From Thiosulfativibrio zosterae (GTDB taxonomy: Bacteria > Pseudomonadota > Gammaproteobacteria > Thiomicrospirales > Thiomicrospiraceae), in the NCBI RefSeq assembly GCF_011398155.1, contig NZ_AP021888.1, positions 975,501 through 1,039,500 of the forward strand: 64,000 nucleotides of DNA. Reading direction: 5' to 3'. Both the position numbers and the translations under genes were made by a program. The notes beneath the pieces were generated by a model. It worked only from the letters and a program-made list of their open reading frames with translations. It had not been told where the DNA came from and searched no databases. Shown one piece after another: positions 6,396-29,847 of this stretch; the stretch's first letter is position 1; the number at the start of each line of letters is the position of its first letter.

Positions 6396-6966
6396 ATACA
6401 AAATCCACCCGCTCGCCGATGTGCAAACCAACAAAATAGGTGAAGGTACAACTATTTGGCAGTTCAGTGTGGTTCTTAAGCAGGCACAAATTGGTGCTAA
6501 CTGCAATATCAACGCACTAACACTTATCGAAAATGATGTGATTATTGGCGACAATGTTACCGTCAAATCTGGCGTGCAAATCTGGGATGGCTTGCGCATT
6601 GAAAATAATGTTTTTATTGGCCCTAATGTAACGTTTACCAACGACTTTACCCCGCGCTCTAAACAACGCCCAGCCGAGTTTTTAAAAACTATTATTAAAC
6701 ATCAAGCCTCAATTGGTGCTAGTGCCACGATCATTGGTGGCCTTACCATTGGCGCATACGCCATGATTGGTGCAGGCAGTGTGGTTACCAAAGACGTACC
6801 TAATTATGCGTTGGTTTACGGCAACCCCGCAAAACAGCATGGGTGGGTATGCGAATGTGGCACAAAATTAAATAAATTAACGTGTTTAAGTTGCAACAAG
6901 GTTTATACAATGATTAACAATGCTCTAACAGAACAGAACAGAACAGAACAGAACAGCCGTAAATGA
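6388..6966 (+). CDS. left-handed beta-helix acyltransferase (FdtC/WxcM N-domain type)
   Basis: 192 residues. Hexapeptide repeats fill residues about 5-150 ('[10 protein letters not shown]', 'IGANCNI', '[10 protein letters not shown]', '[14 protein letters not shown]', '[10 protein letters not shown]', '[12 protein letters not shown]'), and '[11 protein letters not shown]' closes the helix. A small Cys cluster follows (CECG...CLSC), probably a zinc ribbon. The family N-acetylates dTDP-3-amino sugars such as Fuc3N or Qui3N. The last 15 codons run through six AACAG units, so copy-number change would alter only the extreme C-terminus. The role fits its place between the isomerase and aminotransferase genes. 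Confidence 0.85.
6927..6956 (+). repeat. pentanucleotide tandem repeat, (AACAG) x 6
   Basis: Six uninterrupted AACAG units within the last codons of the acyltransferase gene, read as alternating TEQNR-type residues. The unit is not a multiple of three, so slipped-strand gain or loss of a unit would shift the frame. Confidence 0.95.
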
Positions 6967-7002
6967 CAATCTGTTTTATGCTAACACCCGGCAAGGTGTG
7001 GC

Positions 7003-7527
7003 ATGAAGCTCATTCAAGGCAAAAACATAAACCTACGCCCAGCAAGAGTAGAGGATGCGGAATTTATTTTAGGTTTGCGATTGCAACAACATAAAACACA
7101 ATATTTAAGCGAGGTAGAAAACAACCTCGCCAAGCAGCTGGCCTGGTTAAAAAGTTACCTACAAAAAGAACAGCAAGGCCTAGAGTATTATTTTGTGATT
7201 GAAAGTAAACAACACGAAAACCTAGGGCTGGTGAGAGTGTACGATTTACAACCCAATTCCTTCTGCTGGGGCAGTTGGCTGATAAAAGATGACGCGCCCA
7301 AAACCACAGCAATAGAATCGGCGTTATTGGTGAACGAATTTGGTTTTGGAGAACTAGGCTATAAACAAGCCCATTTCGATGTACGCAAAGGCAACGAGCG
7401 CGTGATCGCCTTCCACCAACGCTTTGGGGCAAGTATCACGCACGAAGATGAATTAAACTATTACTTCAACTACAAACATGAAGACTGTTTACAAATTAAA
7501 CAAAAATACCGCCGTTACCTGAATTAA
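7003..7527 (+). CDS. GNAT-family N-acetyltransferase
   Basis: 174 residues with the RimJ/RimL-like layout: 'INLRPARVEDAEFILGLR' at the N-terminus, the central strand 'YYFVIESKQHENLGLVRVYDL', and the acetyl-CoA region 'SALLVNEFGFGELGYKQAHFDVRKGNERVIAFHQRFGA'. It probably acetylates an amino sugar nucleotide or an exposed glycan amine, since it sits among dTDP-3-amino-sugar genes. A PseH-type role (UDP-linked amino sugar acetylation) is possible because pseI is present. The ATG at 7003 follows AAGGTG at a usable distance. Confidence 0.75.
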   Translation: MKLIQGKNINLRPARVEDAEFILGLRLQQHKTQYLSEVENNLAKQLAWLKSYLQKEQQGLEYYFVIESKQHENLGLVRVYDLQPNSFCWGSWLIKDDAPKTTAIESALLVNEFGFGELGYKQAHFDVRKGNERVIAFHQRFGASITHEDELNYYFNYKHEDCLQIKQKYRRYLN

Positions 7528-7543
7528 GCGGCTAGGAGGCAAG

Positions 7544-7798
7544 ATGAGCCAGTTAGTGTTAGAAATAAAAAATGAAATGGTAAAAGAGCGGTTGCTTTGG
7601 CTTTTACAACACTTTAAAAAAGACGAGCTGGAAATTGTTGGCACCTACACCGTTAAAGACAACCAGGTCTGGTCAGATGAATACATCGAACAAAATTGGC
7701 GAGAATTGATCATCACATCATCAATGCAGCCGGATTATGAAAAAAGCAGTCAGTTTCGTGAAGAATTTGGCGAGTATTTGGCAGAGAAGAATAAATGA
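7544..7798 (+). CDS. small antitoxin-like protein preceding a PIN domain
   Basis: 84-residue acidic protein starting 9 bp after a strong AGGAGG. Its N-terminus '[18 protein letters not shown]' is the kind seen in small partners of PIN-domain toxins, and its stop overlaps the PIN ATG (ATGA), exactly as in VapBC-type operons. No DNA-binding fold is obvious by eye. I infer it is, or was, the antitoxin of the PIN domain encoded next; the family assignment is weak and an antitoxin role is not shown by sequence alone. Confidence 0.5.
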
Positions 7799-9357
7799 AA
7801 AAATTTTTAATTGATTTGAATATCCTGTTTGATAACTATGACGCTAATCGACAAGCTTTATTCCCGAACTCGATTGAGTCGCTTCAGCTTTTAAAGTGTG
7901 CACCTGACTGCGAGTTGTTTGTATCATCCAGTTCGTTGCATAATTTACAGTATATAAAAGCGACCAGCATAAAAAGAGAGCACGCTGCAATTACGAGACA
8001 AAATGCGGATAAACTGGCTAATCATTTCATCAAGGATGTTTTGTCTTACTGCAAGCTTGCCAAAACCCCAAGCTACATCGACATTGACTACGACGACATA
8101 GAAGACTCGCAAATCATCGCCTCCGCGCGAGCCATTGACGCCAAAGTCCTCACCCGTGACGAAGGCATGTTGACGAAATACCCAGATGAGACCATCAGCC
8201 CGGCTGAATTTTTAAAAAAAAAAACCGAGCCACAAAAAGTCAGCTTCTTAGATCTCAAGGCGATTAACCAACAATACATCCATGAGTTTGAACAAGCCTT
8301 CGACCAAGTGCTAAATTCCGGCTGGTATATCCAAGGCAACCAAGTTAAAGCCTTTGAGCAAGAATTCGCCGACTACTGCGGCACCAAGCACTGTATTGGC
8401 GTAGCAAATGGTCTTGATGCGTTGATCCTCATCCTAAGAGCCTACAAAGAACTCGGAAAACTCAAAGAAGGTGATGAGGTTATTGTGCCCGCCAATACCT
8501 ATATTGCCAGTATTCTTGCTATAACCGAAAATCGCCTTAAGCCGATATTAGTAGAACCCGATGCACAAACCTACAACTTATCACCAGGCCTGGTTGAGAC
8601 AGCAATAACCCCAAACACCAAGGCCATTTTAGCAGTGCATTTATACGGACAGCTTGCCGATATGCCAGCAATTAATGCCATAGCCCAAAAGCACAATCTA
8701 TTGGTTATTGAAGATTCTGCACAATCGCATGGCGCAAGTATTGATGGACGAAAATCAGGCAACTGGGGCGATGCCTCTGGCTTTAGTTTTTACCCAGGTA
8801 AAAATCTAGGTGCGCTAGGCGATGCCGGCGCCATCACCACCAATGATGATGAGCTCGCGCAAACCATCCGCGCACTCGGAAACTACGGCAGCCATAAAAA
8901 ATACGAAAACCTTTACCAAGGCCTAAACAGTCGCCTAGACGAAATGCAAGCTGCTTTTTTAAGGGTTAAACTAAAAACATTAGATCAGCAAATTGAAAAG
9001 CGCCGTCAGATTGCAACTTGGTATTGTTCGTATATTGATAATAAAAACATTGCTCTACCTGATCGACTACCAAGATCCGACATTCGACATGATACACATC
9101 ATGTGTGGCATTTATTCGTCATTCGTACCAAGGAGCGTGCAAAACTGCAAGGTTATTTAGCTGAAGAAGGTGTTCATACTTTGATACATTATCCATTAGC
9201 CGTTCATAAGCAGCGCGCCTTTAATAATTGGCCAAAACATCATTATCCTGTTACTGAAGCTCTTTCAAGTGAAGTGTTGAGTTTACCAATTAGTCCTGTG
9301 ATGACCGATGAAGATACATTATCAATTTGTAAGTTGATCAATGATTTTTCGAACTAA
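7795..9357 (+). CDS. PIN-domain (VapC-like) fused to DegT/DnrJ/EryC1 aminotransferase (FdtB-like)
   Basis: 520 residues in one frame. Residues 1-140 are a PIN nuclease domain: '[10 protein letters not shown]' (Asp7), '[26 protein letters not shown]' (central and C-terminal acidic residues) and the closing 'ISPAEFL'. From about 149, '[21 protein letters not shown]' is the normal N-terminus of FdtB/QdtB-type PLP aminotransferases, followed by '[13 protein letters not shown]', 'EDSAQSHGA', '[20 protein letters not shown]' (PLP lysine) and '[12 protein letters not shown]'. Each half is full length, so this is a genuine fusion or two genes joined by loss of a stop and a start. The joint is an A11 run (8214-8224), where slippage would give a PIN-only product. 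FdtB aminates the C3 keto sugar made by FdtA. Confidence 0.9.
8214..8224 (+). repeat. A11 homopolymer at the PIN/aminotransferase joint
   Basis: Five T then eleven A at the domain boundary. Losing one A (or a +1 slip) leads to TAG at 8249-8251 and a PIN product of about 151 residues; gaining one A (or a -1 slip) leads to TAA at 8265-8267 and about 157 residues. Both are normal VapC lengths. Confidence 0.9.
8583..8594. repeat. 12-bp palindrome ACCAGGCCTGGT, exact copy
   Basis: Inside the aminotransferase half, read as PGLV. Confidence 0.8.
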
Positions 9358-9869: not shown

Positions 9870-11462
9870 TTAATATTGAGCCTGTTTGCTCAGTGCTGAG
9901 TTTGTTTTGGTAAACAATTCTGATTTTAACGGATTATGGGCAAAAGTTGCTTTCCAGACTCTGGGTGTGAGTTGAATAATATCTTTAGCGGGATGTTGAT
10001 TGATGCGCAGCAATACATCAGTCAGATAAGTATAGGGGTTGATGTCGTGTAGTTTACAGGTCGTGATTAAACTTTGAATAATCCCCACCTGTTCAGCCCC
10101 CATCTCTGTCCAGCAAAAGAGCCAGTTTTTGCGTCCCATAGGAATGGGTCTTAGGGCTATTTCTAAATGATTGGTATCCAGGGGAACCTCTGGGTCACTC
10201 AAAAATACCTGTAAAGCCGTTTGTTTGGTGAGCGCATAGTGGATGGCTTTTCTAAAGGGATCTTTAGGGGTAAGATCTGTGCGCTCACTTTGTTGAAGTG
10301 CCCATTCAAAAAACTGCTCTACTATGGGTTTTGAGTGTAATAGGCGGTAATTGCGTTTGAGTTCACCTTGTAGATGTTGTTGTTTGATTTGCTCTTCAAA
10401 ATGATAGAGTTTGCCAATGAGATCTAAAGCCGTATTCACCGCTTCTGTGGCGTGTGTTTGAGCATTGATAAATTGTCGACGGGTATGTACCCAGCATTGG
10501 GCATGGGTAACCCCTTCAGCCTGTTGGGCAAAACGCGCATAGGCACTGTAGCCATCACTGATGAGTGTGCCGCAAAAGCGCTCTTTGAGTTGTTTTTCAA
10601 TATGGAATCGCCCTCGACTGGTACTGAAGGTAAAGACCACTTCATCATCTTGTCCATAAATGGGCCAAAACCAAGCTTGTTTGAGTTTACCGGGGGATGA
10701 GAGTCCCGCTTTAATGGGGGTTTCATCCATGGCCAGGACTTTTGAGCGTAGAACATGGTCTAGTTGTGCCATCACGATCGGTCTGAGTAAATCAATGCTG
10801 CGTTGGCTAAGATTGGTCAAGGTGCTGCGAGATAGGGTAATACCGCCGTGATTGAGACGTTGGTGTTGACGATAGAATGGAATGTGGTATTGAAACTTGT
10901 CTATCAACAGTCCTACGATGAAGCTCACATCACTTAAGCTTTTATCTAACACATTGTCTGGTGCAGGACTGGGAGCGATCACTTGAGTGGTACGGTGTTT
11001 GATGATTGGGCGATCATAACGCAAGATGACATAGCTTGAGGGGCGTTGTGCGAGACGAAAGGTTTGTTTTAGGCCGATGATTTCATAATCATCGGCATCA
11101 GGGCCTTGCAGCTCAGCTGGCAGGATTTCAATCACTTCAACCGGTACCTGGTCATTAAAGCGTAAACCCGCTTCGTTTAAAGTGTCATCTGCTCGTAGTT
11201 TGCCTAAGCGACGTTGATAACTGACGGTGATGACTTCACCCTCAGGTGTTGAAGCCTTAACAGGCGGTGATAGTAAATCTAACAGACTGAGTTGTTCATC
11301 AGGAATTTCAACCAAACGCTTTTCAGTTTTTTGTCCAAACAATTGCTTTTTAAACCAATCGAGTTGGTTTTTGAGTAAACGAACTTCTTCTTTAAGTTCA
11401 AGATTTTCTTGGCTCAGTGCAATCACATTTTGGGACATATTAAGCGTCATGTAACAGGTCAT
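9870..11462 (-). CDS. tnpC: IS66-family transposase TnpC (DDE)
   Basis: Up to 530 residues; internal ATGs near 11445 and 11436 could be the real start. An N-terminal leucine-rich coiled coil ('LSQENLELKEEVRLLKNQL') is followed by 'FGQKTEKR', then the catalytic domain with 'LAMDETPIKAG' (first Asp), 'GTLISDGYSAYARF' (second Asp) and 'NHLEIALRPIPMGRKNWLF' (Glu). These are the standard IS66 signatures and the gene appears intact. It catalyses element transposition together with TnpA and TnpB; because tnpA is broken, this copy is probably no longer able to move by itself. Confidence 0.93.
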   Translation of the reverse strand: MTCYMTLNMSQNVIALSQENLELKEEVRLLKNQLDWFKKQLFGQKTEKRLVEIPDEQLSLLDLLSPPVKASTPEGEVITVSYQRRLGKLRADDTLNEAGLRFNDQVPVEVIEILPAELQGPDADDYEIIGLKQTFRLAQRPSSYVILRYDRPIIKHRTTQVIAPSPAPDNVLDKSLSDVSFIVGLLIDKFQYHIPFYRQHQRLNHGGITLSRSTLTNLSQRSIDLLRPIVMAQLDHVLRSKVLAMDETPIKAGLSSPGKLKQAWFWPIYGQDDEVVFTFSTSRGRFHIEKQLKERFCGTLISDGYSAYARFAQQAEGVTHAQCWVHTRRQFINAQTHATEAVNTALDLIGKLYHFEEQIKQQHLQGELKRNYRLLHSKPIVEQFFEWALQQSERTDLTPKDPFRKAIHYALTKQTALQVFLSDPEVPLDTNHLEIALRPIPMGRKNWLFCWTEMGAEQVGIIQSLITTCKLHDINPYTYLTDVLLRINQHPAKDIIQLTPRVWKATFAHNPLKSELFTKTNSALSKQAQY

Positions 11463-11600
11463 TTTAAGGGATAAAATTGATTAAAATCACGGGACATATT
11501 TTACCATTTCAAAGGCTTTCAGGCCAGGATTAGAGGGCGGTTTTGCAGGGTTTTTGTCATCATTTTAAGAACTGATTGTTTTGGTTTATTGCGAGTATTT

Positions 11601-11954
11601 TCAACTGAGTTTTTTGCCTTGATAACGCTTGTGTTGATAGAGCTTTTTGACCTTAAGACCTGAGAGCATTAATTGCAGTTGTGTGGCACTAATGGCACTC
11701 GTGTTGGCGTCAATTTGAGGCGCTTGCGCCCATTGTCCTTGCTCTAAACGCTTTTGCCATATGGCATAACCATCGGGTTCAAAATACAGAATTTTAAGTT
11801 GGGTACGACGCCGATTAATGAAAACAAAATAATCACCGCTTAAGGGCTGGTAGTTCATCTTTTTAACTAAGCCAATTAAGCCGTGAAAAGAACAGCGCAT
11901 ATCGGCAGTGTCTGGATAGAGCCATATATTGGCAAATGGGGCTGGTGCAAACAT
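11601..11954 (-). CDS. tnpB: IS66 accessory protein TnpB
   Basis: 117 residues with the whole TnpB signature: 'IWLYPDTADMRCSFHGLIGLV' at the N-terminus, 'GDYFVFINRRRTQLKILYFEPDGYAIWQKRLEQG' in the middle, and a C-terminal 'LQLMLSGL' segment. This is the usual length and position, between tnpA and tnpC. TnpB is needed for IS66 transposition but its biochemical activity is poorly defined. Confidence 0.93.
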   Translation of the reverse strand: MFAPAPFANIWLYPDTADMRCSFHGLIGLVKKMNYQPLSGDYFVFINRRRTQLKILYFEPDGYAIWQKRLEQGQWAQAPQIDANTSAISATQLQLMLSGLKVKKLYQHKRYQGKKLS

Positions 11955-12156
11955 AATGTGACTAAACCTGAGCTAATTGCAGCTCTATGCCATTAGGGAG
12001 TTTTAAGGTGATTTTCCAAGATTGATGGGCGCTTGGGTTTTCACAAGATGAAGTTGTCATCGAACTTAGGGGTGCTGTATTGATTAATTGAGCAAGAGTG
12101 TTTAGTTGAATAAGGTTGTGAGTGTCACGGGACTTTTTGACGGTAGGGATTGATGC

Positions 12157-13499
12157 GAGCCTGTAAATCAAACTGTGTAAACGCTCATAGATTAAAATCC
12201 TCAAAAAAGGAAAAAGCTATGAGCAACTTAGACCACAAAAAACTCCAAGAATTGGCCAAAGAACTTGCCAAGTCTGTTAAAACACAAGAAGACCTATCCA
12301 ACCTTTCATCCATGCTGGTTAAGATGACTGTTGAAGCAGCCCTTGGCGCTGAGAAGGAAGAACATTTAGGCTACTCAAAAAACCAAGTTACCGACTCAAC
12401 TAACAGCCGTAACGGCTACACCAGCAAAACCCTCAAAGGTGATCATGGTGAAGTTGAACTGTGCGTCCCTAGAGACCGTAACAGTACCTTTGAACCCGTC
12501 ATCGTTAAAAAAGGCGCTACACGACTCACCCACATGGATGACCAGATTCTTAGCCTTTACGCTAAAGGTATGAGTACCCGAGACATCGTTGACGCCTTTA
12601 AAGAAATGTACGGTGCTGATGTTTCACCCACCCTCATTTCTAAAGTCACCGAATCTGTACTCGAGAAAGTTACCCAGTGGCAAGAACGACCCCTCGATGA
12701 AATCTACCCCATTATCTACCTTGACGGCATAGTGCTCAAAATCCGCCAAGACAAACAAGTGTTGCGCAAAACCATGTATGTAGCGCTGGGCATTAACCTA
12801 GAAGGTAGAAAAGAATGTTTGGGGCTTTGGTTATCAGAAAATGAATCTTCCAAGTTTTGGTTAAATGTTTTAAATGACCTTCACGCCCGTGGCGTGAAAG
12901 ACATTCTCATCGCATCGGTTGATGGCCTAACAGGATTTCCTGAAGCGATTAATGCTGTCTACCCTAAAACAGATATACAGCTTTGTATTGTCCATATGGT
13001 GCGTAACTCACTCAAGTATGTCGGCTATAAAGAACGCAAACTGGTTGCCACTGATTTAAAAGACATTTACCAATCCGTCACTGAAGCAGGTGCTTTAATG
13101 GCGCTGGAGCGCTTTGAACAAAAATGGGATGCAAAATTTCCCGGTATCAGCAAATCCTGGCGAACTCACTGGGATAATGTCTCAACCTTGTTTTTATATC
13201 CAGAATCAATACGTAAAGCGATCTACACCACTAATGCCATAGAATCACTCAACTCTGTGATTCGCAAAGCGGTGAATAATCGCAAGATTTTTGGGCATGA
13301 TAATTCGGCATTTAAAATTGTATTTTTGGCGATTGAATCGGCATCAAAAAAATGGACAATGCCGATTCGGGACTGGAATGCTGCGATGAATCAGTTTATA
13401 CCCCTCAAGGGGGTACTATAAAGAGTGATTTTGCATGAAGACCGCCTTATAGGGCGGGTGTAACCAAATGGGCGTTTACACAGAATTATTTACAGGCTC
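12157..13499 (+). mobile_element. IS256-family insertion sequence with perfect 8-bp target duplication
   Basis: Imperfect inverted repeats start GAGCCTGTAAAT and extend to GTGTAAACG at both ends (from 12157 and inverted to 13499). The flanks carry an identical 8-bp duplication ATTGATGC (12149-12156 and 13500-13507), the size made by IS256-type elements. The perfect duplication and the clean restoration of tnpA indicate a recent, simple insertion. A stem-loop CCGCC/GGCGG follows the transposase gene near 13442-13456. Confidence 0.95.
12219..13421 (+). CDS. IS256-family (mutator-like) transposase
   Basis: 400 residues from the ATG at 12219, chosen because AAGG lies 8 bp upstream and because a longer in-frame start at 12150 is outside the element. 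Family motifs are present: 'RNGYTSKTLKGDHGEVELCVPRDRN', 'IIYLDGIVLKIR' (first Asp), 'IASVDGLTGFPEAI' (second Asp), 'CIVHMVRNSLKYV', and 'IESLNSVIRKAVNNRKIF' (Glu). No internal stops, so it is probably functional. It is the only clearly intact single-gene transposon in the window. Confidence 0.95.
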   Translation: MSNLDHKKLQELAKELAKSVKTQEDLSNLSSMLVKMTVEAALGAEKEEHLGYSKNQVTDSTNSRNGYTSKTLKGDHGEVELCVPRDRNSTFEPVIVKKGATRLTHMDDQILSLYAKGMSTRDIVDAFKEMYGADVSPTLISKVTESVLEKVTQWQERPLDEIYPIIYLDGIVLKIRQDKQVLRKTMYVALGINLEGRKECLGLWLSENESSKFWLNVLNDLHARGVKDILIASVDGLTGFPEAINAVYPKTDIQLCIVHMVRNSLKYVGYKERKLVATDLKDIYQSVTEAGALMALERFEQKWDAKFPGISKSWRTHWDNVSTLFLYPESIRKAIYTTNAIESLNSVIRKAVNNRKIFGHDNSAFKIVFLAIESASKKWTMPIRDWNAAMNQFIPLKGVL

Positions 13500-13751: not shown

Positions 13752-14112
13752 AATAGTAATCGTAATGTCGATTACGATTTTCTTGCTCAAAGATTTTATT
13801 ATTTGGCTACTGTTTACCGAAGACTTTGCCCCCATGCGCGAACTGTTTTTGTGGCAGTTGGTTGGGGATGTGTTGATGTTGTCAGGGTTTTTGCTTTGTT
13901 ATATTTCAGTGGCTAAAGCTATGACAAAAATATTTATTTTTAAACAAGTCTTTTTGGCGATGGTTTTTGTTTTGGCATCTGTTTATTTAATCGATCAATA
14001 TGGCTTGGTAGGAGTGACATATGCTTATGTAGTGCTATACGTATTTGGAAATATTTTCGGCTATGTGGTCTATAAGCTTTATATGAAAAATTGGCGAGGC
14101 CTATTTGATTGA
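13752..14112 (+). pseudogene. wzx (polysaccharide flippase, WzxE-like), 3' fragment
   Basis: The frame entering from the IS66 right end (codons from 13753) gives the last 119 residues of a multi-pass membrane protein: 'LLKDFIIWLLFTEDFAPMRELFLWQLVGDVLMLSGFLLCYISVAKAM' plus two further hydrophobic segments. This is the C-terminal pattern of WzxE-type flippases (about 415 residues). The first two thirds are missing at the IS border, so the gene is dead unless a second copy exists. In related loci wzx follows the fdtB gene, so the IS event removed sequence between 9454 and 13752. Confidence 0.85.
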
Positions 14113-14126
14113 AGGATTGAGTGCAC

Positions 14127-15452
14127 ATGAAAAAGATAATATATAAATTTTTGAAGACCGTGGCTTATTTTTTACCACAACCGGTACAGGTAGTGCTGAA
14201 GAAAAAATTCATTTCTTTAACTCGTTTATACAGCTTAAGTATTCTCCCTAGAATTTTGGATGCCAAAAAAAAGAAGCTCGTCCAGAGTGTTTCTGGAAAA
14301 AAAACGGTTAGAGTTGTCTTTTTGGCAATTCATAAAAGTGTTTGGAAGGTTGATCCAGTCTTTCAAAAAATGCAGAAGGATTCGTATTTTGAACCTATCA
14401 TTTTAGTATGCCCCTATGTTCAATATGGTCATCAAAGAATGTTAGACGACTTAAATGCGACTTATGAATATTTTGCTAGTAAGGGCTATCCTGTTTATTC
14501 TTCTTTCAATCCAGCGGATGATACTTGGTTGAACTTAGATGAACTGAAGCCAGATATTTTGTTTTTTACCAATCCCCACAACTTAACCCGCAAAGAATAT
14601 TATTCTGATGTTTACAATGCATATCTGAGTGTTTATGTACCCTATTACTTTATGGCTACAAAACATGCGGGTGATGATTATGCAATGTATGGCAGCCCTT
14701 TCCTATCATCCATGTTTAAGGTTTTTTGGCCAAGTGAATATCACTTACAACAACAGAAAAAGGTTACCAGGGGGCAGGTAAAAAATGGTCTGGTAACAGG
14801 CTATCCTGCGATGGAACCTATTGTCGAAACAACTAAGGTTATAAAGGTATGGAAGTTGCAAGAAAACCAAAAGAAGAAAATCATCTTTGCGCCGCATCAT
14901 ACGATTGTTCAAGGTGAAAAGTCTCTTTCGTCTTTTTTAAAATTAGCAAGTTTTATACAATCATTGGCGATGCAATTTTCTGATCAAATACAATGGAGTT
15001 TTAAACCACATCCCATTTTAAAAGCAAAGCTGATAAAACACCCTGAATGGGGTAAAGAAAAAACGGAAGCTTATTACCAATTTTGGCTAACTAATACATT
15101 TACCCAGTTGGATGAAGGCGAGTATATTGATCTCTTCAAAGAATCTGATGCGATTATTCATGACAGTAGTTCGTTTATTGCCGAGTATGCTTTTTTAGAA
15201 AAGCCAGCTCTATTTCTTATGGATGAAGAAAAAGCAAACTATATTGTTAACTCTTTTGGCAAGATGTTTTTGCAACAATATCTAGTGACAGATAATAAAG
15301 AAGAGATAGTGGAATTTATAAAGGAAGTGTTGCAAGGCAGTATTACAGCAAGTAACAGCCCAAGCCTTAAAAATTACATTACAGAATTCTACATTGAAAA
15401 CCAACCCTCTGAATTAGTGATAAACCATTTAAAAAAAGCATTATTAAGTTGA
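14127..15452 (+). CDS. CDP-glycerol/glycan phosphotransferase-like protein (TagB/F superfamily)
   Basis: 441 residues from the ATG at 14127, preferred over GTG 14121 because AAGGA at 14112-14116 is better spaced. N-terminal basic segment, then a nucleotide-sugar-transferase-like fold with 'VVFLAIHKSVWKVDPVF', 'IFAPHHTIVQGE', 'WSFKPHPILKAKL' and 'DLFKESDAIIHDSSSFIAEYAFLEKPALFL'. The 'DS/SSxxxExxxxxKP' signature is that of CDP-glycerol glycerophosphotransferases. It directly precedes the phosphoramidate-type genes with a 1-bp gap, so it might be the transferase that adds a CDP-activated group; that is inference only. Confidence 0.7.
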   Translation: MKKIIYKFLKTVAYFLPQPVQVVLKKKFISLTRLYSLSILPRILDAKKKKLVQSVSGKKTVRVVFLAIHKSVWKVDPVFQKMQKDSYFEPIILVCPYVQYGHQRMLDDLNATYEYFASKGYPVYSSFNPADDTWLNLDELKPDILFFTNPHNLTRKEYYSDVYNAYLSVYVPYYFMATKHAGDDYAMYGSPFLSSMFKVFWPSEYHLQQQKKVTRGQVKNGLVTGYPAMEPIVETTKVIKVWKLQENQKKKIIFAPHHTIVQGEKSLSSFLKLASFIQSLAMQFSDQIQWSFKPHPILKAKLIKHPEWGKEKTEAYYQFWLTNTFTQLDEGEYIDLFKESDAIIHDSSSFIAEYAFLEKPALFLMDEEKANYIVNSFGKMFLQQYLVTDNKEEIVEFIKEVLQGSITASNSPSLKNYITEFYIENQPSELVINHLKKALLS

Positions 15453-15453
15453 T

Positions 15454-18400
15454 ATGAAAAGCAAAATAGCAATTTTAGCTGCAGGTATGCCGCACTTTGG
15501 TGAACTACCATCTCTCAGTAGTAAAGTAGGTGGCTTGTCTATTCTCGATTGGCAATTAAATAGCTTAAAGGCGCTATCGGCTATAACAGATGTGGTTGTT
15601 GGTTTTCGTGCCTCTGAATTGGACCTTGCACAATATGCGAGTATTAATTTGATTGAGAATCCCCACTGGCAATCAACCGGCAGCGTAGGCTCTTTGTTAT
15701 TGGTTGATATTGAAGATTGTGATGAATTATGGGTCAGTTATGGTGATGTTGTTTATCACCAGAAACCTATAGAGAGGATGTCTGAGATAGATTCGGATGT
15801 TGTCATCGCTTATGACAGTGAGTGGACTACACGATACTTGGGGCGTGATCTGTCAGATATTAAGAATGCGGAAAAAGTCATTTTGACAGGTCAAAATATT
15901 AGTCGATTAGGCCAAGATATCAATTTGGATTGGGCAACAGGTGAGTTTATCGGCCTCGTTAGAATAACTGGTGAAGCACTAGCAATACTTAAGAAGCTGA
16001 AAATAAAGCCTTTAAAAAATTTAGCAAATTTATCTTTACCTGATTTGCTTGAATTGCTTAGGTTGAAAGGTGCCCAATTAATAGGTTTCGATATTAAAGG
16101 TCAGTGGGCAGAGCTCAATGAATCTAGAGATTTAGCGCACTTTGTAATGGGGACAAAATCAGAAACACTTTTAAGATTGCATGGAATGTTGAAGTCTGCG
16201 GTGATTCAAGAGCAAGCATCTTTTTCAGTTGCTGATTGGAAAACACAATCGCAAGACTTGATTAGACAGATTCAGGCCAATTTACCTCATGAAAAACTTG
16301 TGGTGCGTTCAAGTGCGCTAAGTGAGGATGCTTTTACTCATTCTAATGCAGGCGCATATACCAGCGTTTTAAATGTACAGAACAATATAAAAGATCTAAC
16401 AGATGCAATTATAAAAGTCATCAACTCTTATGATAACCTGCAACTTGATGATCAGGTTTTAGTACAGCCTATGCTGACAGATGTTGTGATGAGCGGGGTA
16501 GTCTTTACCAGAACATTGGAGCAGGGTGCGCCTTACTATGTTATTAACTATGAGGAGTCTGGTTCGACAGAGGGCATTACTTCAGGTCATGCGGCACAAA
16601 ACTCCGTATTTTACTTTTATAAAAAAGCAAACCCAGATAAGGTTAGCTGTAAAAAGCTCAGAAACCTTATAATTTCTCTTCAAGAAATTGAGTTACTTCT
16701 TAATTATGATGCCTTAGATATTGAATTTGCCGTCGATAAAGCAGGTAGAATTCATATTTTTCAAGTTAGACCGATCAGTTTGCATCAAAACATTTCTTAT
16801 CAAACCGATCAAGAGATTGCTCTGTCAATTGAGCAGGCAAAGCGTTTTTATCAACAATGTTGTCTTATGAATGACGGCTTGGTTGGCAATCGAACGATTT
16901 TAGGCAATATGCCTGATTGGAATCCAGCAGAGATTATTGGTACCAACCCTGGGAATTTATCTTATTCTTTATATAAATATCTTATTCTTGATGAAGTTTG
17001 GGCTCAGCAACGTGCAGAGTTTGGCTATCGTGATGTAAGGCCATATGGTTTGTTAAAGCGTTTTTTAGGCCAACCCTATGTTGATGTTAGAGCGAGCTTT
17101 AACTCTTTTATACCCAAGAACTTATCTAATGAACTAGCAGAGAAGCTTGTGAATTTTTACAGTGTTTGGCTAGTCTTAAATCCACACTTACATGACAAAA
17201 TTGAATTTGAAGTGGTTCCAACTTGTTTGAGCTTAAACTTTGATCGTTGGAAGCAGCGTTTAATAAGAGAGGGTGGCTTTGATGCCAGTGAAGTAACTCA
17301 ACTGAAAGAAGGTTTGAAAGAAGTCACTAATAATGCCATAACGCGTGTTGAATCAGATCTTAAGATAGTGGAGAAGCTAAAAGTTTTATTAGATACTCCA
17401 ACCTATAATTCAGATAACTTCGTTAGTATATCTAGTATTAAGACGCTGTTAGATGATTGTAAGCGTTTAGGTACGCTTCCTTTTGCGCACCTCGCACGCG
17501 CTGGTTTTATAGCGATTACTTTTTTAAAGGACGCCGTGAAAGTTGGTGTTATTTCTAAACAAGCTCAAGAAGGCTTTTTGGAATCATTAAAAACGGTTTC
17601 GCATTCTTTCTCAGAAGATGCTTATTGTGTCAAAACTTCTTCAATGGCTTGGTTAGAGTTTGTTCAAAAGTATGGTCATTTAAGACCCGGAACTTATGAC
17701 ATAAATTCATCGGCATATCACGAGGATTCAGAACATTACTTAAAGCCGGCGGTTGAGCGATCTCAAAAACTAGTTAGTGATTTGGAAAAGCGAAATTGCT
17801 GGGAAAAAGAAAAAAACCGGCTATTCGATGGATTAAGAAAAATCGGAATCCTATCAGATGATGAACAGCTTGAGTCTTTTATGCGACAAGCGATAGAGGG
17901 AAGGGAAAAAGCAAAGTTTATTTTTAGTCGAAGTTTATCAAAAGCATTAGATCAATTAATTATTTGGGGGGATAGGAATCAGCTTTCGCGCGAATTCATA
18001 GCAGAGCTTTCAATAACACAAATTTTCGAACATATAGAGCAAATTTCTTTGAGTGAAACCGAGTGTAAGAAGTTAAAAGAGTTAGCCAATAACAGTTTGC
18101 AAATGCGTAAGACGAATTTAGCGTGTGAATTGCCACCACTGATTGTTTCAGAACAAGATTTTCACTATTTTACCTTAAATGAAAATCACCCAAATTATAT
18201 TGGTTCAACCAAAGTATCTTCTGTAGTTATTGACTTATCAAAAACTGCACAAAATGACCAGGTGAGTGGGAAAATTGTTCTGATTCCGCAGGCTGACCCT
18301 GGTTATGATTGGTTATTTGGACAAGGTATTGTTGGACTGATTACGATGTATGGCGGAGCTAATTCGCACATGGCGATTCGTTCTGCAGAATTTGGTTTGC

Positions 18401-18501
18401 CTGCGGCTATCGGGGTGGGTGAAGCTTTATACAAGAAACTATCACAAGCAAACCAGCTTGAGTTGGACCCATCAAACTCTTTGATACGGTTGGTTCATTG
18501 A
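15454..18501 (+). CDS. glutamine kinase-like PEP-synthase-family protein with N-terminal nucleotidyltransferase-like domain
   Basis: 1015 residues. Residues about 1-235 resemble a sugar nucleotidyltransferase ('IAILAAG', 'ELWVSYGDVVYHQKP', 'TGEFIGLVRIT') but lack the GxGTRL loop, and visibly resemble the separate cytidylyltransferase at 20380. From about 283 comes a pyruvate-phosphate-dikinase-type ATP-grasp domain ('VVRSSALSEDAFTHSNAGAYTSVLNV' region, 'DIEFAVDKAGRIHIFQVRPI'). The C-terminal swivelling domain has 'GGANSHMAIRSAEFGLPAAIGVG' with the phospho-carrier His972. Campylobacter Cj1418, an L-glutamine kinase of phosphoramidate (MeOPN) synthesis, has this kinase architecture, and here the two partner enzymes lie next door. 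A PEP synthase role is less likely given the context. Confidence 0.75.
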   Translation: MKSKIAILAAGMPHFGELPSLSSKVGGLSILDWQLNSLKALSAITDVVVGFRASELDLAQYASINLIENPHWQSTGSVGSLLLVDIEDCDELWVSYGDVVYHQKPIERMSEIDSDVVIAYDSEWTTRYLGRDLSDIKNAEKVILTGQNISRLGQDINLDWATGEFIGLVRITGEALAILKKLKIKPLKNLANLSLPDLLELLRLKGAQLIGFDIKGQWAELNESRDLAHFVMGTKSETLLRLHGMLKSAVIQEQASFSVADWKTQSQDLIRQIQANLPHEKLVVRSSALSEDAFTHSNAGAYTSVLNVQNNIKDLTDAIIKVINSYDNLQLDDQVLVQPMLTDVVMSGVVFTRTLEQGAPYYVINYEESGSTEGITSGHAAQNSVFYFYKKANPDKVSCKKLRNLIISLQEIELLLNYDALDIEFAVDKAGRIHIFQVRPISLHQNISYQTDQEIALSIEQAKRFYQQCCLMNDGLVGNRTILGNMPDWNPAEIIGTNPGNLSYSLYKYLILDEVWAQQRAEFGYRDVRPYGLLKRFLGQPYVDVRASFNSFIPKNLSNELAEKLVNFYSVWLVLNPHLHDKIEFEVVPTCLSLNFDRWKQRLIREGGFDASEVTQLKEGLKEVTNNAITRVESDLKIVEKLKVLLDTPTYNSDNFVSISSIKTLLDDCKRLGTLPFAHLARAGFIAITFLKDAVKVGVISKQAQEGFLESLKTVSHSFSEDAYCVKTSSMAWLEFVQKYGHLRPGTYDINSSAYHEDSEHYLKPAVERSQKLVSDLEKRNCWEKEKNRLFDGLRKIGILSDDEQLESFMRQAIEGREKAKFIFSRSLSKALDQLIIWGDRNQLSREFIAELSITQIFEHIEQISLSETECKKLKELANNSLQMRKTNLACELPPLIVSEQDFHYFTLNENHPNYIGSTKVSSVVIDLSKTAQNDQVSGKIVLIPQADPGYDWLFGQGIVGLITMYGGANSHMAIRSAEFGLPAAIGVGEALYKKLSQANQLELDPSNSLIRLVH

Positions 18502-18502
18502 T

Positions 18503-19108
18503 ATGAAGAGAATAGGCATTTCCCAGCGCAGAGACGACGTTCCCAATAGAAACGAAACAAGAGATTCACTTGATGTCATATGGTCAAGTCTTCTGTGGCG
18601 GCTAAATATTATTCCAATTCCTCTGTGCAGTGAAATCCAAGATCATCTAAGTTATTTGGCGGCCCTTAATTTGGATGGTTTTATTTTATCGGGCGGAAAT
18701 GATATAGGTGAAAGCCCTAAAAGAGATCATTTAGAAAATAGCATTCTTGATTATTCAAAAGCAAAAAATTTACCCGTCTTAGGTGTCTGTAGAGGTATGC
18801 AATACATAAATTTCTATCAAGGTGGGAGTTTGATCAATATCGGTGGCCATGTCGCAACTCAACATTCCAAGCTGGTGGGTGGATGGGTTTCGCAAAACAG
18901 TATTAATTATGTTAACAGCTTCCACAATTATGCAGTCACTGATCAAACAATAGGCGAGCAATTAGAGCCGCTTGCTCATACTGAAGATGGAGTTGTCGAA
19001 GCTTTACAGCATAAACACCATCCTTGGTTAGGCATTATGTGGCACCCAGAACGTGAACCCTATCAAACTTCAAACGATAGATTAATTCAACAACACTTTA
19101 AGGTTTAA
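18503..19108 (+). CDS. class I glutamine amidotransferase-like hydrolase (Cj1417/PuuD-like)
   Basis: 201 residues. The nucleophile elbow 'GVCRGMQ' holds the catalytic Cys near residue 95; 'MWHPERE' near 180 supplies His and Glu of the triad, and 'FILSGGNDIG' forms the oxyanion region. It belongs to the gamma-glutamyl-GABA-hydrolase-like branch. In Campylobacter, Cj1417 splits cytidine diphospho-L-glutamine into glutamate and cytidine diphosphoramidate. It starts 1 bp after the glutamine-kinase-like stop, which supports that reaction here. Without the context it would be called a generic peptidase C26. Confidence 0.78.
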   Translation: MKRIGISQRRDDVPNRNETRDSLDVIWSSLLWRLNIIPIPLCSEIQDHLSYLAALNLDGFILSGGNDIGESPKRDHLENSILDYSKAKNLPVLGVCRGMQYINFYQGGSLINIGGHVATQHSKLVGGWVSQNSINYVNSFHNYAVTDQTIGEQLEPLAHTEDGVVEALQHKHHPWLGIMWHPEREPYQTSNDRLIQQHFKV

Positions 19109-19111
19109 AAG

Positions 19112-20383
19112 ATGGTTTCGCTGATTGAAGAGATAAAAAAAGATTTAGATTATAAAAATCAATTTTTGATTGATCGCCTTTGCTTTTTAATTGATGTAAA
19201 AAAGATAATTCATAAAGCATATTCGGATAATGATTTGAAGCAGGGCGATCAAACGCTGACCGCGCCGGATTTAATGCAAATATGTGATTACTTAAAAAGC
19301 GCTTCCGAGCAAAAGGAAAATCTAGATTACAAAATTGTCAATAGTTTGCTAAAAATTCAATCGGGTGAAATAGTATGGCCTGAAAAATTTGTTTTCTCAG
19401 AAGATGTAGCGAGTTTTTTATATAAGGCTCTGAATGATTTGCAATTACCTAAAATAAAAAATAAGTCCGCTTTATGCAATATTGGTAGCTGGGTAAATGC
19501 AGTAAGTGTATCCCCAGGGCAGGCTATAAAAAAAATGGATTTTACATTTGTGAAATGGAATGAAACCCTTGGGAAAGCATATTCATTTGCATTAATGTCA
19601 CAAAATATTTTGCCGACAAGTGTTATCAAGGTGCGACCCACACAAAGCTGGAAAAGAAGAGTTTTAGGCTTACTTCCAATAATGTTTCAAAAGTTTGTGT
19701 TTATCAAATTAAAACCTGGTCTTTTAAATACCGTATCTGTCAAAGGCAGTTTAAATATTTTTAATGAAGATCATTGTTTGCATAAAGTCTATGGCGATAG
19801 GCTTGTAATAAAAAATAGTATGGTTGTCAATGCATCAAACATTAATGAGCATAAAATTGTTGATGCGATGAAGAAAGGCAATGGGAGTGCTCTATTGTTT
19901 TCGGGTGGTGGTTTGGTTAGACAAAATACATTTGAGCAAGTAAATAAAAAATTTATTCATATGCATCCTGGAAAATTACCAGAAGTGAGGGGCGCGGATG
20001 GATTTTTCTGGTCAGTGTTGTTAAATGGTTATCCATCTTGTTCTGCCTTTTACCAAAATGTAGGTATAGATACAGGGGGTGTCATTCATGAAGAGAGTTT
20101 TGAGTTGCCAATGTTCAATACGTTATTGATAAGTGAATTAGAAAGTCACGCCAAATCTAATTTTTATGATGTAGTTTATCGTTCGATACTAGATTATTAT
20201 GACCCAATGATGCGAGCGATTACATTGTCTGACGTTCTTGAGAAGGTGAATGCTGGTAGTTCAATAGATGATTTAGAGTTGCGCTCTCAAAAAGAGATTG
20301 AAGGACGCAATTATCATTTTATGCACCCTTCGCTAAGAAATAAGTTAATAGAATTAATTTTAAATAATAGAGAGAAAGTATGA
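19112..20383 (+). CDS. formyltransferase-like protein of unknown substrate
   Basis: 423 residues. The N-terminal ~150 residues are Lys-rich and helical with no recognised fold. The C-terminal half holds a formyltransferase-like core: 'KGNGSALLFSGGGLV', 'FIHMHPGKLPEVRGADGFFWSVLLNG' and 'AFYQNVGIDTGGVIHEESFELP'. The usual N-x-H-P-(S/G)-x-LP motif reads H-M-H-P-G-K-LP, so the catalytic Asn position is His, while the later Asp of 'GIDTG' is kept. It sits inside the phosphoramidate-like operon, overlapping the cytidylyltransferase gene by 4 bp, yet has no counterpart in the Campylobacter pathway. It may formylate or otherwise acylate the product, or may be non-catalytic. Confidence 0.6.
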   Translation: MVSLIEEIKKDLDYKNQFLIDRLCFLIDVKKIIHKAYSDNDLKQGDQTLTAPDLMQICDYLKSASEQKENLDYKIVNSLLKIQSGEIVWPEKFVFSEDVASFLYKALNDLQLPKIKNKSALCNIGSWVNAVSVSPGQAIKKMDFTFVKWNETLGKAYSFALMSQNILPTSVIKVRPTQSWKRRVLGLLPIMFQKFVFIKLKPGLLNTVSVKGSLNIFNEDHCLHKVYGDRLVIKNSMVVNASNINEHKIVDAMKKGNGSALLFSGGGLVRQNTFEQVNKKFIHMHPGKLPEVRGADGFFWSVLLNGYPSCSAFYQNVGIDTGGVIHEESFELPMFNTLLISELESHAKSNFYDVVYRSILDYYDPMMRAITLSDVLEKVNAGSSIDDLELRSQKEIEGRNYHFMHPSLRNKLIELILNNREKV

Positions 20384-21153
20384 GAATAATTATCCTTGCA
20401 GCGGGACAGGGGACACGCTTAAGACCTTACACAAATGATCGCCCAAAATGTATGGTAAGTTTAAATGGTAAACCACTGTTGCATTATCAACTCGATGTGA
20501 TGAACGAATTGGGCATTGATAAGTCAGATATTGCTTTAGTTGGCGGATATTTACAAGAAGCCTTGGTTGCGCCGGGTATAAAACAGTATAGAAACGAAAA
20601 ATTTGCTGAAACCAACATGTTGGAAACCCTCTTCTGTGCGGAAGAGTTTATGACGGATGATGATTTAATCATTGCCTATGGGGATATTGTCTATAAACCC
20701 GAGGTGCTACAGGCTTTGATTGATACTGAAGGCGATGTAGTGATTACTGCCGATTTGGAATGGGAGCAACTTTGGTCATTAAGAATGGAGAATCCATTGG
20801 ATGACGCTGAAACCTTCAAAATGAATGATCAAGGTTTTGTTATAGAGTTAGGGAAGAAACCACAATCTAATGAAGAAGTTCAGGCTCAATATATGGGGTT
20901 GATTAAGGTTAGTCGTGAAAAAGTAAGAGCTTTTAAAAGTTTTTATCAGAGCTTGGATCGAAAAGCGATTTATGATGGCAAAGACTTTGACAATATGTAT
21001 ATGACCAGTTTTATTCAAAATCTAATTGATGGCGGTTGGAAAGTTAAACCCGCATTAATCAAAAATGGATGGGTAGAAGTGGATACAGTCGAAGAACTAA
21101 AGCTTTATGAAAAAATGAAGATCTTTTTACACACTAAGTTAAATAAATCATGA
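20380..21153 (+). CDS. CTP:phosphoglutamine cytidylyltransferase-like nucleotidyltransferase (Cj1416-like)
   Basis: 257 residues with an intact nucleotidyltransferase signature 'IILAAGQGTRLRPYTNDRPKCMVSLNGKPLL', the metal-binding 'IIAYGDIVY', 'GLIKVS', and a closing 'NGWVEVDTVEELKLYEKM'. It is of the LicC/Cj1416 type. In Campylobacter, Cj1416 couples CTP to phospho-L-glutamine. With the kinase-like and hydrolase-like genes just upstream, the reaction order kinase, cytidylyltransferase, hydrolase is complete. A phosphocholine or sugar-phosphate cytidylyltransferase is the alternative reading, but no choline kinase gene is near. Confidence 0.78.
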   Translation: MRIIILAAGQGTRLRPYTNDRPKCMVSLNGKPLLHYQLDVMNELGIDKSDIALVGGYLQEALVAPGIKQYRNEKFAETNMLETLFCAEEFMTDDDLIIAYGDIVYKPEVLQALIDTEGDVVITADLEWEQLWSLRMENPLDDAETFKMNDQGFVIELGKKPQSNEEVQAQYMGLIKVSREKVRAFKSFYQSLDRKAIYDGKDFDNMYMTSFIQNLIDGGWKVKPALIKNGWVEVDTVEELKLYEKMKIFLHTKLNKS

Positions 21154-21647
21154 TCGAATCCCTGATTGCCCCAGTATCTGAATGGTTGATTAAAAAAGGC
21201 CAGGATAAAATTAAGGAGTCGGCGGAGTTTCAAAACACACGCTTGGCGATACGGCAGGCGGTGGTTCGCGAATTACGCTTGAACAGGGCTTTTATTGACG
21301 AGGTAATAAAGCTTAAAGAAGACGTTACAGGTTTGACCCTTGCGATGGCTGAAGAATTAGAAGTCAGTGCATTTAATAAGCTAGAAGACTCGTTTATGCC
21401 GATTGAGCTTTTTTTCGATTGTGAACGCCCTGCGTTGGATGAAGAAAGTTCGGATGGCCAATTTTTAAACTGGGCCAGTCAGCTAGAAAATGAAGCCTTG
21501 TGGGTCGAGCGTATTTATATGCGGTTACGCATTTTAAGAGCACGCTGGCGTTGCAGCAAAGTCCCAAAAAACAAAAGCGTGCAATATGTACGGTGGTTAA
21601 TCGATACTTGGTTAAAACAGCAGACAAACCGTAACCGTACATTCTAA
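21150..21647 (+). pseudogene. hypothetical protein gene, 3' end replaced by an IS66 remnant
   Basis: The first 160 codons are a helical, charged protein ('LIKKGQDKIKESAEFQNTRLAIRQAVVRELRLNRAFIDEVI', Trp-rich C-terminal half) that I do not recognise. The frame then enters the IS66 tip at 21631 and stops at TAA 21645, so the last five residues (RNRTF) are transposon-derived. Its start overlaps the cytidylyltransferase stop (ATGA), so it belonged to the phosphoramidate-like operon. Whether the shortened protein still works is unknown. Confidence 0.6.
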
Positions 21648-21716: not shown

Positions 21717-22548
21717 TGTGGCTACATTATTTCGTAACAAACAAGCGCAGCTTTTAGCGATGCAAAGACGACAAACAGCTTACAAAGCCATAAAGTTAAC
21801 CTAAACTACGACAGACTGGCTTTCACAGCTCATTGAACAAGATTTAAGCCCACAGCAAGCTGTTGATTATCTGATGCGTGAAAAAGGCATTAGCCTTCAT
21901 CACGAAACGGTGTACCAGTTTATTTATCGAGATAAAGCCAATGGCGGTCAATTGCATGAACACTTGAGAATTGCCAATAAGCCCTATCGCAAACGCTATG
22001 GAAAAAATGACCGCCGCGGGCAAATCAAAAACCGCATCTCAATTGAACAACGGCCTGAGATTGTTGAGCAAAAAACAAGGATTGGTGATTGGGAAGGTGA
22101 CACAGTTATTGGCAAGGGACATAAAGGAGTATTACTAACGCTTGTAGAGCGTAAGACACTGTATACCCTCATAGTGCCATTACCAGACAAGCAATCTGAG
22201 AAGTTAGCCCAAGCAGTGATTAATGCCATGAAAGGCCTTAAATCTCAAGTACTGACGATTACCTATGACAATGGTAAAGAATTTGCTGACCATGAACGGA
22301 TGGCAAAGGCGTTGGAAGCAGATATTTACTTTGCACACCCTTATGCTTCTTGGGAGCGTGGAATTAATGAAAATACCAATGGTCTGATACGCCAGTATTT
22401 TCCCAAAGGTATGGATTTAAGAGGTGTAACAATAGAGCAAACTCAGTATGTTATGGACAGATTAAACAATCGTCCAAGAAGTAGTCGAGGAGGTAAAACA
22501 CCTAATGAATTATTTAAGGGGCTGCGAGTAGATTTACTGGCAGCGTGA
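21717..22548 (+). pseudogene. IS30-family transposase, 5'-truncated with an internal stop
   Basis: Frame 1 from 21721 gives 'RNKQAQLLAMQRRQTAYKAIKLT', then TAA at 21802-21804, then resumes '...DWLSQLIEQDLSPQQAVDYLMREKGISLHHETVYQ'. From the ATG at 21874, 224 residues cover the catalytic half: 'IGDWEGDTVIGKGHKG' (Asp), 'TITYDNGKEFADH' (Asp), 'FAHPYASWERGINENTNGLIRQYFPKG' (Glu). The N-terminal DNA-binding part is missing at the IS66 junction. The catalytic domain is well preserved, so decay is fairly recent. Confidence 0.88.
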
Positions 22549-28920: not shown

Positions 28921-29847
28921 ATGGCAATGGTAATCAACACGAACATGGCATCACTGAACGCAGTTAGAATGCTAGACAGTACCTCAAAAGAACAATCCAC
29001 ATCAATGGAGCGCCTAACCTCAGGGCTCAGAATCAACCGAGCAGCAGATGATGCAGCAGGCTTAGCGGTTGCTATTGGGATGACCACTCAAATTCGAGGG
29101 ACAGACATGGCTATTCGTAATGCCAATGACGGTATTGGAATGCTACAAACGCTAGATGGTGCAACCGAAGAAGTCATGAATATGCTTCAAAGAATGCGAG
29201 AACTGAGTATACAATCGATGAACGGTACCTACAACATGGACAACCGTCAACAAATGGATGCAGAAGTCACGCAACTACAAAAAGAAATTCAACGAGTGGC
29301 AGACACCACTAAATTCAACGGCATGAACATCATGAACGCCAGCTCATTTGGATCTGCCGCGGTTGCCGCATCCTTTGCCACCACAAGTGCTGGTGCTTTA
29401 TCGGTTGCTGTATCAAACGCATCGGCGATGAAAATACACGCAGGTTGGGAAGGTTCAAGTGCCAACAAAATTGGTATACCACTACTGAACTTCAGCACGT
29501 TATCAGCATTAACCACAGCAGGTAACTTATACGCAACTGGTATGTCAAGTTTTGCCTCAGCTACTACAAAAGCCACAGAAGCCCTTAAAGTATTTGATAC
29601 TGGGTTATCTGTTCTTAAAAACATGCGAGCTAACTGGGGTGCGCTACAAAACCGCTTAGAATCAACGGTTTCTAATTTACAAAATGTGAACGAAAACATT
29701 CAAGCATCACGTTCAAGAATATTAGACACAGACTTTGCTAAAGAAAGTGCCAACCTAGCAAGAACCCAAGTATTACAGCAAGCAGGCATGAGTATGCTTA
29801 GCCAAGCCAATCAACAATCGCAACAAGTTATGTCGCTACTGCAATAA
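28921..29847 (+). CDS. flaA: flagellin FlaA, copy 1
   Basis: 308 residues. The conserved N-terminal D0/D1 domain ('AMVINTNMASLNAVRML...LTSGLRINRAADDAAGLAVAIGMTTQIRG') and C-terminal D1/D0 domain ('NIQASRSRILDTDFAKESANLARTQVLQQAGMSML') flank a short variable region (about 140-225), rich in Ser/Ala/Thr and a possible Maf glycosylation target. It polymerises into the filament after export. The protein is identical to copy 2 at 31306. The strong GGGAG Shine-Dalgarno and sigma-28 promoter imply high, late expression. Confidence 0.97.
   Translation: MAMVINTNMASLNAVRMLDSTSKEQSTSMERLTSGLRINRAADDAAGLAVAIGMTTQIRGTDMAIRNANDGIGMLQTLDGATEEVMNMLQRMRELSIQSMNGTYNMDNRQQMDAEVTQLQKEIQRVADTTKFNGMNIMNASSFGSAAVAASFATTSAGALSVAVSNASAMKIHAGWEGSSANKIGIPLLNFSTLSALTTAGNLYATGMSSFASATTKATEALKVFDTGLSVLKNMRANWGALQNRLESTVSNLQNVNENIQASRSRILDTDFAKESANLARTQVLQQAGMSMLSQANQQSQQVMSLLQ

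Follow-up and report, generated by a model that had tools for sequence, protein, structure and literature searches.

An operon of likely foreign origin in Thiosulfativibrio zosterae that may make and use a CDP-activated phosphoramidate

Introduction

In Campylobacter jejuni, the enzymes Cj1415–Cj1418 convert glutamine, ATP, and CTP into cytidine diphosphate (CDP)-phosphoramidate 3'-phosphate (PMC11800397), and the transferases Cj1421 and Cj1422 bear a C-terminal DUF2972 (PMC5808241). O-methyl phosphoramidate is described in one review as identified in Campylobacter only (PMC6429109), and the glutamine kinase is called C. jejuni-specific in another (PMC9561416). For Xanthomonas campestris and Shewanella, an unmethylated phosphoramidate in the lipopolysaccharide (LPS) has been reported (PMC3907429), and it has been argued that acid work-up destroys phosphoramidate groups (PMC6429109). 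The present analysis deals with a five-gene operon of the gammaproteobacterium Thiosulfativibrio zosterae, which contains relatives of the Campylobacter donor enzymes, and lies at positions 14121–21153 of a stretch of 64,000 nucleotides (contig NZ_AP021888.1, positions 975,501 to 1,039,500), referred to here as the window.

The operon appears to have been acquired, and would make, and probably use, a CDP-activated phosphoramidate, with a TagB/F-like enzyme transferring the unmethylated group. The probability of this reading, which is drawn from sequence comparison, is put at roughly 0.72. Comparison with related loci gives good support to the putative donor chemistry; the role of the transferase, the glycan acceptor, and any link to the flagella are what we infer beyond it.

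Organization of the operon

The five genes lie on the + strand, are intact and complete, and are tightly packed, with successive gaps of 1, 1, 3, and -4 bp. All the genes named in a preliminary description of this DNA were recovered as complete open reading frames (ORFs) in their places, with the families described there. For the 1015-amino-acid (aa) protein, its account of an ATP-grasp/phosphohistidine part was correct, and an N-terminal nucleotidyltransferase-like domain (residues 1–228) had been overlooked. The features are as follows:

14121..15452 (GTG start; ATG at 14127), + strand: TagB/TagF-like GT-B transferase (PF04464), 443 aa; candidate phosphoramidate transferase
15454-18501, + strand: whole ORF of the 1015-aa protein
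15454..16137, + strand: degenerate nucleotidyltransferase-like domain, aa 1–228 of the 1015-aa protein, fused to the kinase
16138..18501, + strand: L-glutamine kinase-type domain (PRK05849/NF004508), ATP-grasp plus phosphohistidine domain, assigned by profile, motifs, and tree
18503..19108, + strand: class-I amidotransferase-type hydrolase, candidate gamma-glutamyl-CDP-amidate hydrolase by its best NCBIfam match, NF045546
19112..20383, + strand: two-domain protein, with a C12-like N-terminal domain and a formyltransferase-fold domain (hhalign, fold match)
20380..21153, + strand: LicC/Cj1416-like nucleotidyltransferase, candidate phosphoglutamine cytidylyltransferase by its intact signature and module position

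In gene order, the Pfam matches are PF04464; PPDK_N and PEP-utilizers; Peptidase_C26/GATase; none; and NTP_transf_3.

The predicted donor-forming enzymes

Residues 229–1015 of the 1015-aa protein match NF004508, which we take to be the family of the Cj1418-type glutamine kinases, with 895 bits against an NCBIfam cut-off of 501. Against phosphoenolpyruvate (PEP) synthase (TIGR01418), the protein scores 43 bits, where the cut-off is 740, and a separate gene of the true PEP synthase type is found elsewhere in the same genome. On these scores and the module context, an identity as PEP synthase was rejected. The catalytic His of the phosphohistidine motif GGxNSHMAIR is kept in 53 of 53 kinase relatives, among which the ATP-grasp motifs RS...ED and E...QxR are also conserved.

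The fused N-terminal domain resembles the stand-alone nucleotidyltransferase by BLAST, and has lost the Arg and Lys of the signature; in the clade of loci that share the fusion, a motif of the LGAGRPxxGxxPSAL type stands where LAAGxGxRLxPxTxxxPK is expected. The fused domain of one related locus, L057, still reads GRGIRVSGSTTPKCL, and looks like an intermediate between the intact and the degenerate forms. The fused degenerate domain probably serves for binding or as a scaffold. In L052 and L054 (both Clostridia) and in L101, the kinase carries at its N-terminus a different cytidylyltransferase-like domain, marked by an HYGH motif.

The hydrolase has its best NCBIfam match in NF045546 (gamma-glutamyl-CDP-amidate hydrolase), the family of Cj1417, with 123 bits, and the next family reaches 50 bits; it is not classed as an equivalog, because the curated cut-off of NF045546 is 250. 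Against the same model, the hydrolases of five other loci of the module score 89–113 bits. The protein had been described as a class I amidotransferase with a Cys-His-Glu triad, and the Cys is indeed kept in 45 of 45 relatives, the His and Glu in 44 of 45 (motifs GVCRG and MWHPE). The description of the 20380 protein as a LicC/Cj1416-like nucleotidyltransferase fits equally well, in that its closest solved structure is LicC (1jyk, 6e-15), and the full nucleotide-binding signature, LAAGQGTRLRPYTNDRPK, is kept. No solved structure of a Cj1416–1418-type protein turned up in the structure sequence searches.

Taken alone, the Pfam domain names might suggest that ordinary genes for PEP synthase, a PuuD-like protein, and choline activation have become neighbors by chance, an explanation that retains almost no probability, being contradicted by the NCBIfam scores and by a gene order conserved in nine phyla. 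The PuuD-like and choline-pathway readings were likewise rejected by family scores and gene context. The preliminary description had named placement with PEP synthases or unrelated hydrolases as the outcome that would overturn it, and the family scores placed the proteins otherwise.

A module conserved across phyla

Related loci were drawn from named genomes, plasmids, a phylum sample searched with the hydrolase, and a class sample searched with the kinase, which gave 54 loci for the gene-order count and 53 for the kinase tree. The order kinase–hydrolase–nucleotidyltransferase, in which the 20380 gene is the third member, is found on one strand in 46 of the 54 loci, where the genes mostly overlap or lie a few bases apart, and most exceptions are contig ends or rearranged loci. 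In the phylum sample, where loci were chosen regardless of the kinase, the kinase gene adjoins 11 of the 13 next-best hydrolase matches, and the hydrolase is present with all nine kinase matches in other genomes of the class. The adjacency of kinase and hydrolase exceeds chance. The rows of the tree cover nine phyla: Pseudomonadota, Bacteroidota, Planctomycetota, Myxococcota, Thermodesulfobacteriota, Cyanobacteriota, Krumholzibacteriota, Bacillota, and Actinomycetota.

A gene like adenosine 5'-phosphosulfate (APS) kinase, of the Cj1415 type, lies near the module in 23 loci, directly beside it in most of them, and in L095 (8563–11499) the glutamine kinase-type protein carries an APS-kinase-like domain fused at its N-terminal end. 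Such neighbors are expected if the module makes CDP-amidate. When phosphorylated at the 3' position, CDP-amidate would resemble 3'-phosphoadenosine 5'-phosphosulfate (PAPS). Of the 53 tree loci, 16 have a methyltransferase gene of one family in the vicinity of the module, and PF13469 (sulfotransferase family) scores above its cut-off in all five of the scanned proteins of one neighbor family (cluster 20), encoded near some modules. The sixth cluster-20 sequence, from L053, is a tetratricopeptide repeat (TPR)–PF04464 protein.

The proposal of a phosphoramidate-donor pathway of the Cj1416–1418 type, already made in the preliminary description, is supported by nearly every comparison made, namely family assignment, catalytic residues, gene order, and the Cj1415-type neighbors and fusions of the relatives, with the hydrolase score below the cut-off as the one exception. 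A homologous module might also act on another substrate, such that the kinase phosphorylates some other amide or acid while a CDP-activated group of another kind is made by the nucleotidyltransferase. Neither family nor fold determines the substrate, this clade has diverged (no relative is more than 50% identical to the window kinase), and the hydrolase falls under the NF045546 cut-off, but the conservation of the three genes as a unit fits the removal of a gamma-glutamyl group after activation, and NF045546 leads the hydrolase matches by 73 bits, so that another substrate is considered unlikely.

A number of other arrangements were observed around the module. The L053 protein (6417–8468, Prochlorococcus) has TPR repeats joined to a PF04464 domain, and several related TPR proteins occur. 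In an Azospirillum plasmid (L068, 6635–9962), a protein with a C-terminal APS-kinase domain and a methyltransferase stand just before the module, and sulfotransferase genes follow it. A near-identical block of the module, nonulosonate genes, and a MurJ-like flippase is shared by plasmids of two marine Rhodobacterales species (L065 and L066), one of them conjugative, and represents a recent transfer. No relative was found in the viral contigs searched; one metagenomic phage record carries a kinase match.

The clade of the window and the candidate transferase

In the kinase tree, the window falls within a clade of nine loci (support 100/99), eight of which have the fused nucleotidyltransferase domain, the ninth being cut by a contig end. 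APS-kinase-like genes occur in 0 of the 9 loci of this clade, compared with 23 of the 44 outside it (Fisher p 0.0034), and TagB/F-like genes in 7 of 9, compared with 4 of 44 (Fisher p 6.6e-5), both values being descriptive. An eighth candidate in the clade is a PF04464-like gene upstream of the module in L065, slightly below the Pfam cut-off. Three further kinase lineages (L047, L060, and L080) likewise have a PF04464-type gene no more than 5 bp from the module, and in L047 and L080 the neighbor of the TagB/F-like gene is an accessory gene of the module. The APS-kinase family PF01583 has no match in the complete genome of the window, where the control genomes gave matches. The earlier remark that a Cj1415-like kinase is missing is thereby confirmed, and the suggestion that other enzymes take over its step agrees with the association of the TagB/F-like gene with this clade.

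The 14121 protein scores 30.2 bits against PF04464, above the Pfam gathering cut-off of 22.1, and a homologue with 35% identity is encoded directly downstream of the module in a plasmid of Vibrio alfacsensis (L067). Its predicted model, of low confidence (predicted local distance difference test, pLDDT, 49), resembles GT-B enzymes including TarL/TagF, a match that appears to indicate no more than a GT-B-like fold. DUF2972 gave no match here, but the control genomes likewise gave none. Known TagB/F relatives use CDP-glycerol or CDP-ribitol. The window genome carries just two PF04464 genes, both within the window, and their products, from 14121 and 3651, are 17% identical. At 3217–5129, a TagD-like cytidylyltransferase gene adjoins that of the stronger PF04464 protein (3651–5129, 171 bits), pointing to a separate system for CDP-glycerol or a similar compound.

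Alternatively, the product could be an O-methyl phosphoramidate as in Campylobacter, if the genes of the 3'-kinase and methyltransferase were located elsewhere in the genome. Both genes adjoin the module in many relatives, but the complete genome has no APS-kinase-family gene, and no methyltransferase adjoins the module in the window, which makes this very improbable; nothing supports O-methylation in this organism.

The formyltransferase-like protein

The N-terminal domain of the 19112 protein matches separate genes of the relatives, here called C12 (hhalign probability 95%), and its C-terminal fold matches ArnA/Fmt/WbkC. The canonical catalytic Asn of the formyltransferases is replaced by His in 15 of 15 homologues (HxHxG...D in place of NxHxS...D), so that, of the Asn-His-Asp triad of the N10-formyl-tetrahydrofolate formyltransferases, the His and Asp are retained. 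C12 and the formyltransferase-fold domain are adjacent or fused in L043, L045, L046, L047, L049, L056, L075, and L099, and C12 is fused to APS kinase in L046 and L075. The formyltransferase-like protein belongs to the system as a recurrent accessory.

This protein, rather than the TagB/F-like one, could be what transfers or modifies the phosphoramidate. Its gene sits between those of the hydrolase and the nucleotidyltransferase in the window, it recurs in 15 loci inside and outside the clade, and the invariant change from Asn to His suggests chemistry beyond plain formyl transfer. The fold is nevertheless that of an N-formyltransferase, and the gene was not found in the clade loci L048 and L067, which have the TagB/F-like gene. 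Such a role is judged improbable, if marginally less so than a change of substrate.

Proposed pathway and its strength

In the proposed pathway, the kinase, by its family, would first use ATP to phosphorylate the side-chain amide of L-glutamine. The 20380 nucleotidyltransferase would then join phosphoglutamine to CTP, and the 18503 hydrolase would strip off the glutamate to leave CDP-amidate. The new part, suggested by gene content, is that CDP-amidate itself would be the donor, because the genome has no 3'-kinase, and that the TagB/F-like GT-B enzyme would transfer unmethylated phosphoramidate to a surface glycan.

Several points weigh against this reading. Beyond the hydrolase score, likeness to Cj1416–1418 was judged indirectly, through family models, residues, and gene context. 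The contrast between APS-kinase-like and TagB/F-like genes rests largely on one clade, and tests on independent pairs had too few pairs for significance. This division is not strict: APS-kinase-like and PF04464-like genes occur together in at least three loci (L061, L073, and L080). L097, in the clade of the window, has no PF04464-type gene nearby. The second PF04464 protein of the window, with its TagD-like neighbor, shows that chemistry of the CDP-glycerol type may exist here as well, so that the 14121 protein might use CDP-glycerol.

A broader scheme can be put forward tentatively, with odds somewhat short of even. In this scheme, one shared module, present in at least nine phyla, would serve two routes of decoration: one in which a TagF-type GT-B enzyme uses CDP-amidate directly to give unmethylated phosphoramidate on surface glycans, and the Campylobacter-type route, which adds a 3'-phosphate to form a donor resembling PAPS; in some relatives, enzymes of the sulfotransferase family stand alongside the latter.

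Genomic context and acquisition of the island

The island that contains the operon is flanked by transposase genes:

9870..13421, no strand assigned: IS66-type and IS256-type transposase genes, left flank (translations read by eye)
21874..22548, + strand: IS30-type transposase, right flank (translation read by eye)

The module has a G+C content of 34–39%, compared with 42.5% in the flagellar region, and the kinase is present in 1 of the 63 genomes of the order and 10 of the 369 of the class sample. Horizontal acquisition is proposed because of the low G+C, the flanking transposases, and the rarity of the kinase in the order and class. To the left of the operon are NeuB, FdtA-like, aminotransferase, TagD-like, and TagB/F-like genes, and to the right those of an MptE-like (Maf-type) protein and flagellins, which would be compatible with a flagellar or other surface glycan as the target.

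These same features could be those of a silent relic stranded between insertion sequences. Transposase genes stand on both flanks, G+C is low, a flippase-like ORF is truncated, the island was found in only one genome of the order, and scans of the operon for promoters and terminators gave matches no more numerous than in shuffled sequences, with no significant promoter signal. All five ORFs are intact and closely spaced, however, and the catalytic residues are kept, so that a relic is decidedly unlikely, although less so than the O-methyl product.

The flippase-like ORF (13765–14112, 115 aa) resembles the C-terminal end of a flippase, is probably truncated, and directly precedes the TagB/F-like gene; tblastn found no homology between it and the long membrane-protein-like genes that precede the TagB/F-like genes of L036 and L096. 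At the other end, a 165-aa ORF (21150–21647) overlaps the nucleotidyltransferase gene by 4 bp; it matches no family, and the related loci have no homologue of it. Elsewhere in the window, a pair of two different flagellin genes is repeated in tandem, with proteins that appear identical (28921–29847 and 31306–32232; 29989–30912 and 32374–33297), and a DegT-type aminotransferase (7795–9357) has an extra N-terminal domain of ~150 aa, PIN-like by eye.

Significance

Given a core module spread over nine phyla, P–N bonded surface sugars would be a widespread and overlooked chemistry, which accords with the argued loss of such groups in acid work-up (PMC6429109). The module provides candidate genes for the unmethylated phosphoramidates of the Shewanella and Xanthomonas LPS, a marker for genome searches, and a testable division between two types of donor and transferase. 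The phosphoramidate group of Campylobacter is a phage receptor, and this decoration may therefore matter in contests between phages and hosts elsewhere.

Comparison with known systems

Xanthomonas campestris and Shewanella MR-4 carry in their LPS the unmethylated phosphoramidate that is proposed here as the product of the operon. The 14121 protein shares with the TagB/TagF CDP-glycerol glycerophosphotransferases the PF04464 match, the PHP and DxS motifs, and a GT-B-like model, but its gene is placed within a phosphoramidate operon. The 20380 enzyme has the fold family and nucleotide-binding signature of LicC, the CTP:phosphocholine cytidylyltransferase (1jyk), but travels with a glutamine kinase-type protein and a hydrolase. 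The 19112 protein shares its predicted fold and the active-site His and Asp with N-formyltransferases (ArnA, Fmt, WbkC, and PseJ), and differs from them in the change of Asn to His and in the extra C12-like N-terminal domain.

As in the Cj1415–Cj1418 system of C. jejuni, the glutamine kinase-type protein, the hydrolase, and the nucleotidyltransferase are encoded in one gene unit, and the hydrolase is nearest to the Cj1417 family model. Unlike C. jejuni, the genome of the window is without a Cj1415-type kinase, no methyltransferase stands beside the module, a nucleotidyltransferase domain is fused to the kinase, and the neighbors are TagB/F-like and formyltransferase-like genes. We regard the operon as a variant of the donor pathway known from Campylobacter, with a shared module, no 3'-kinase, another likely transferase, and an extra accessory protein.

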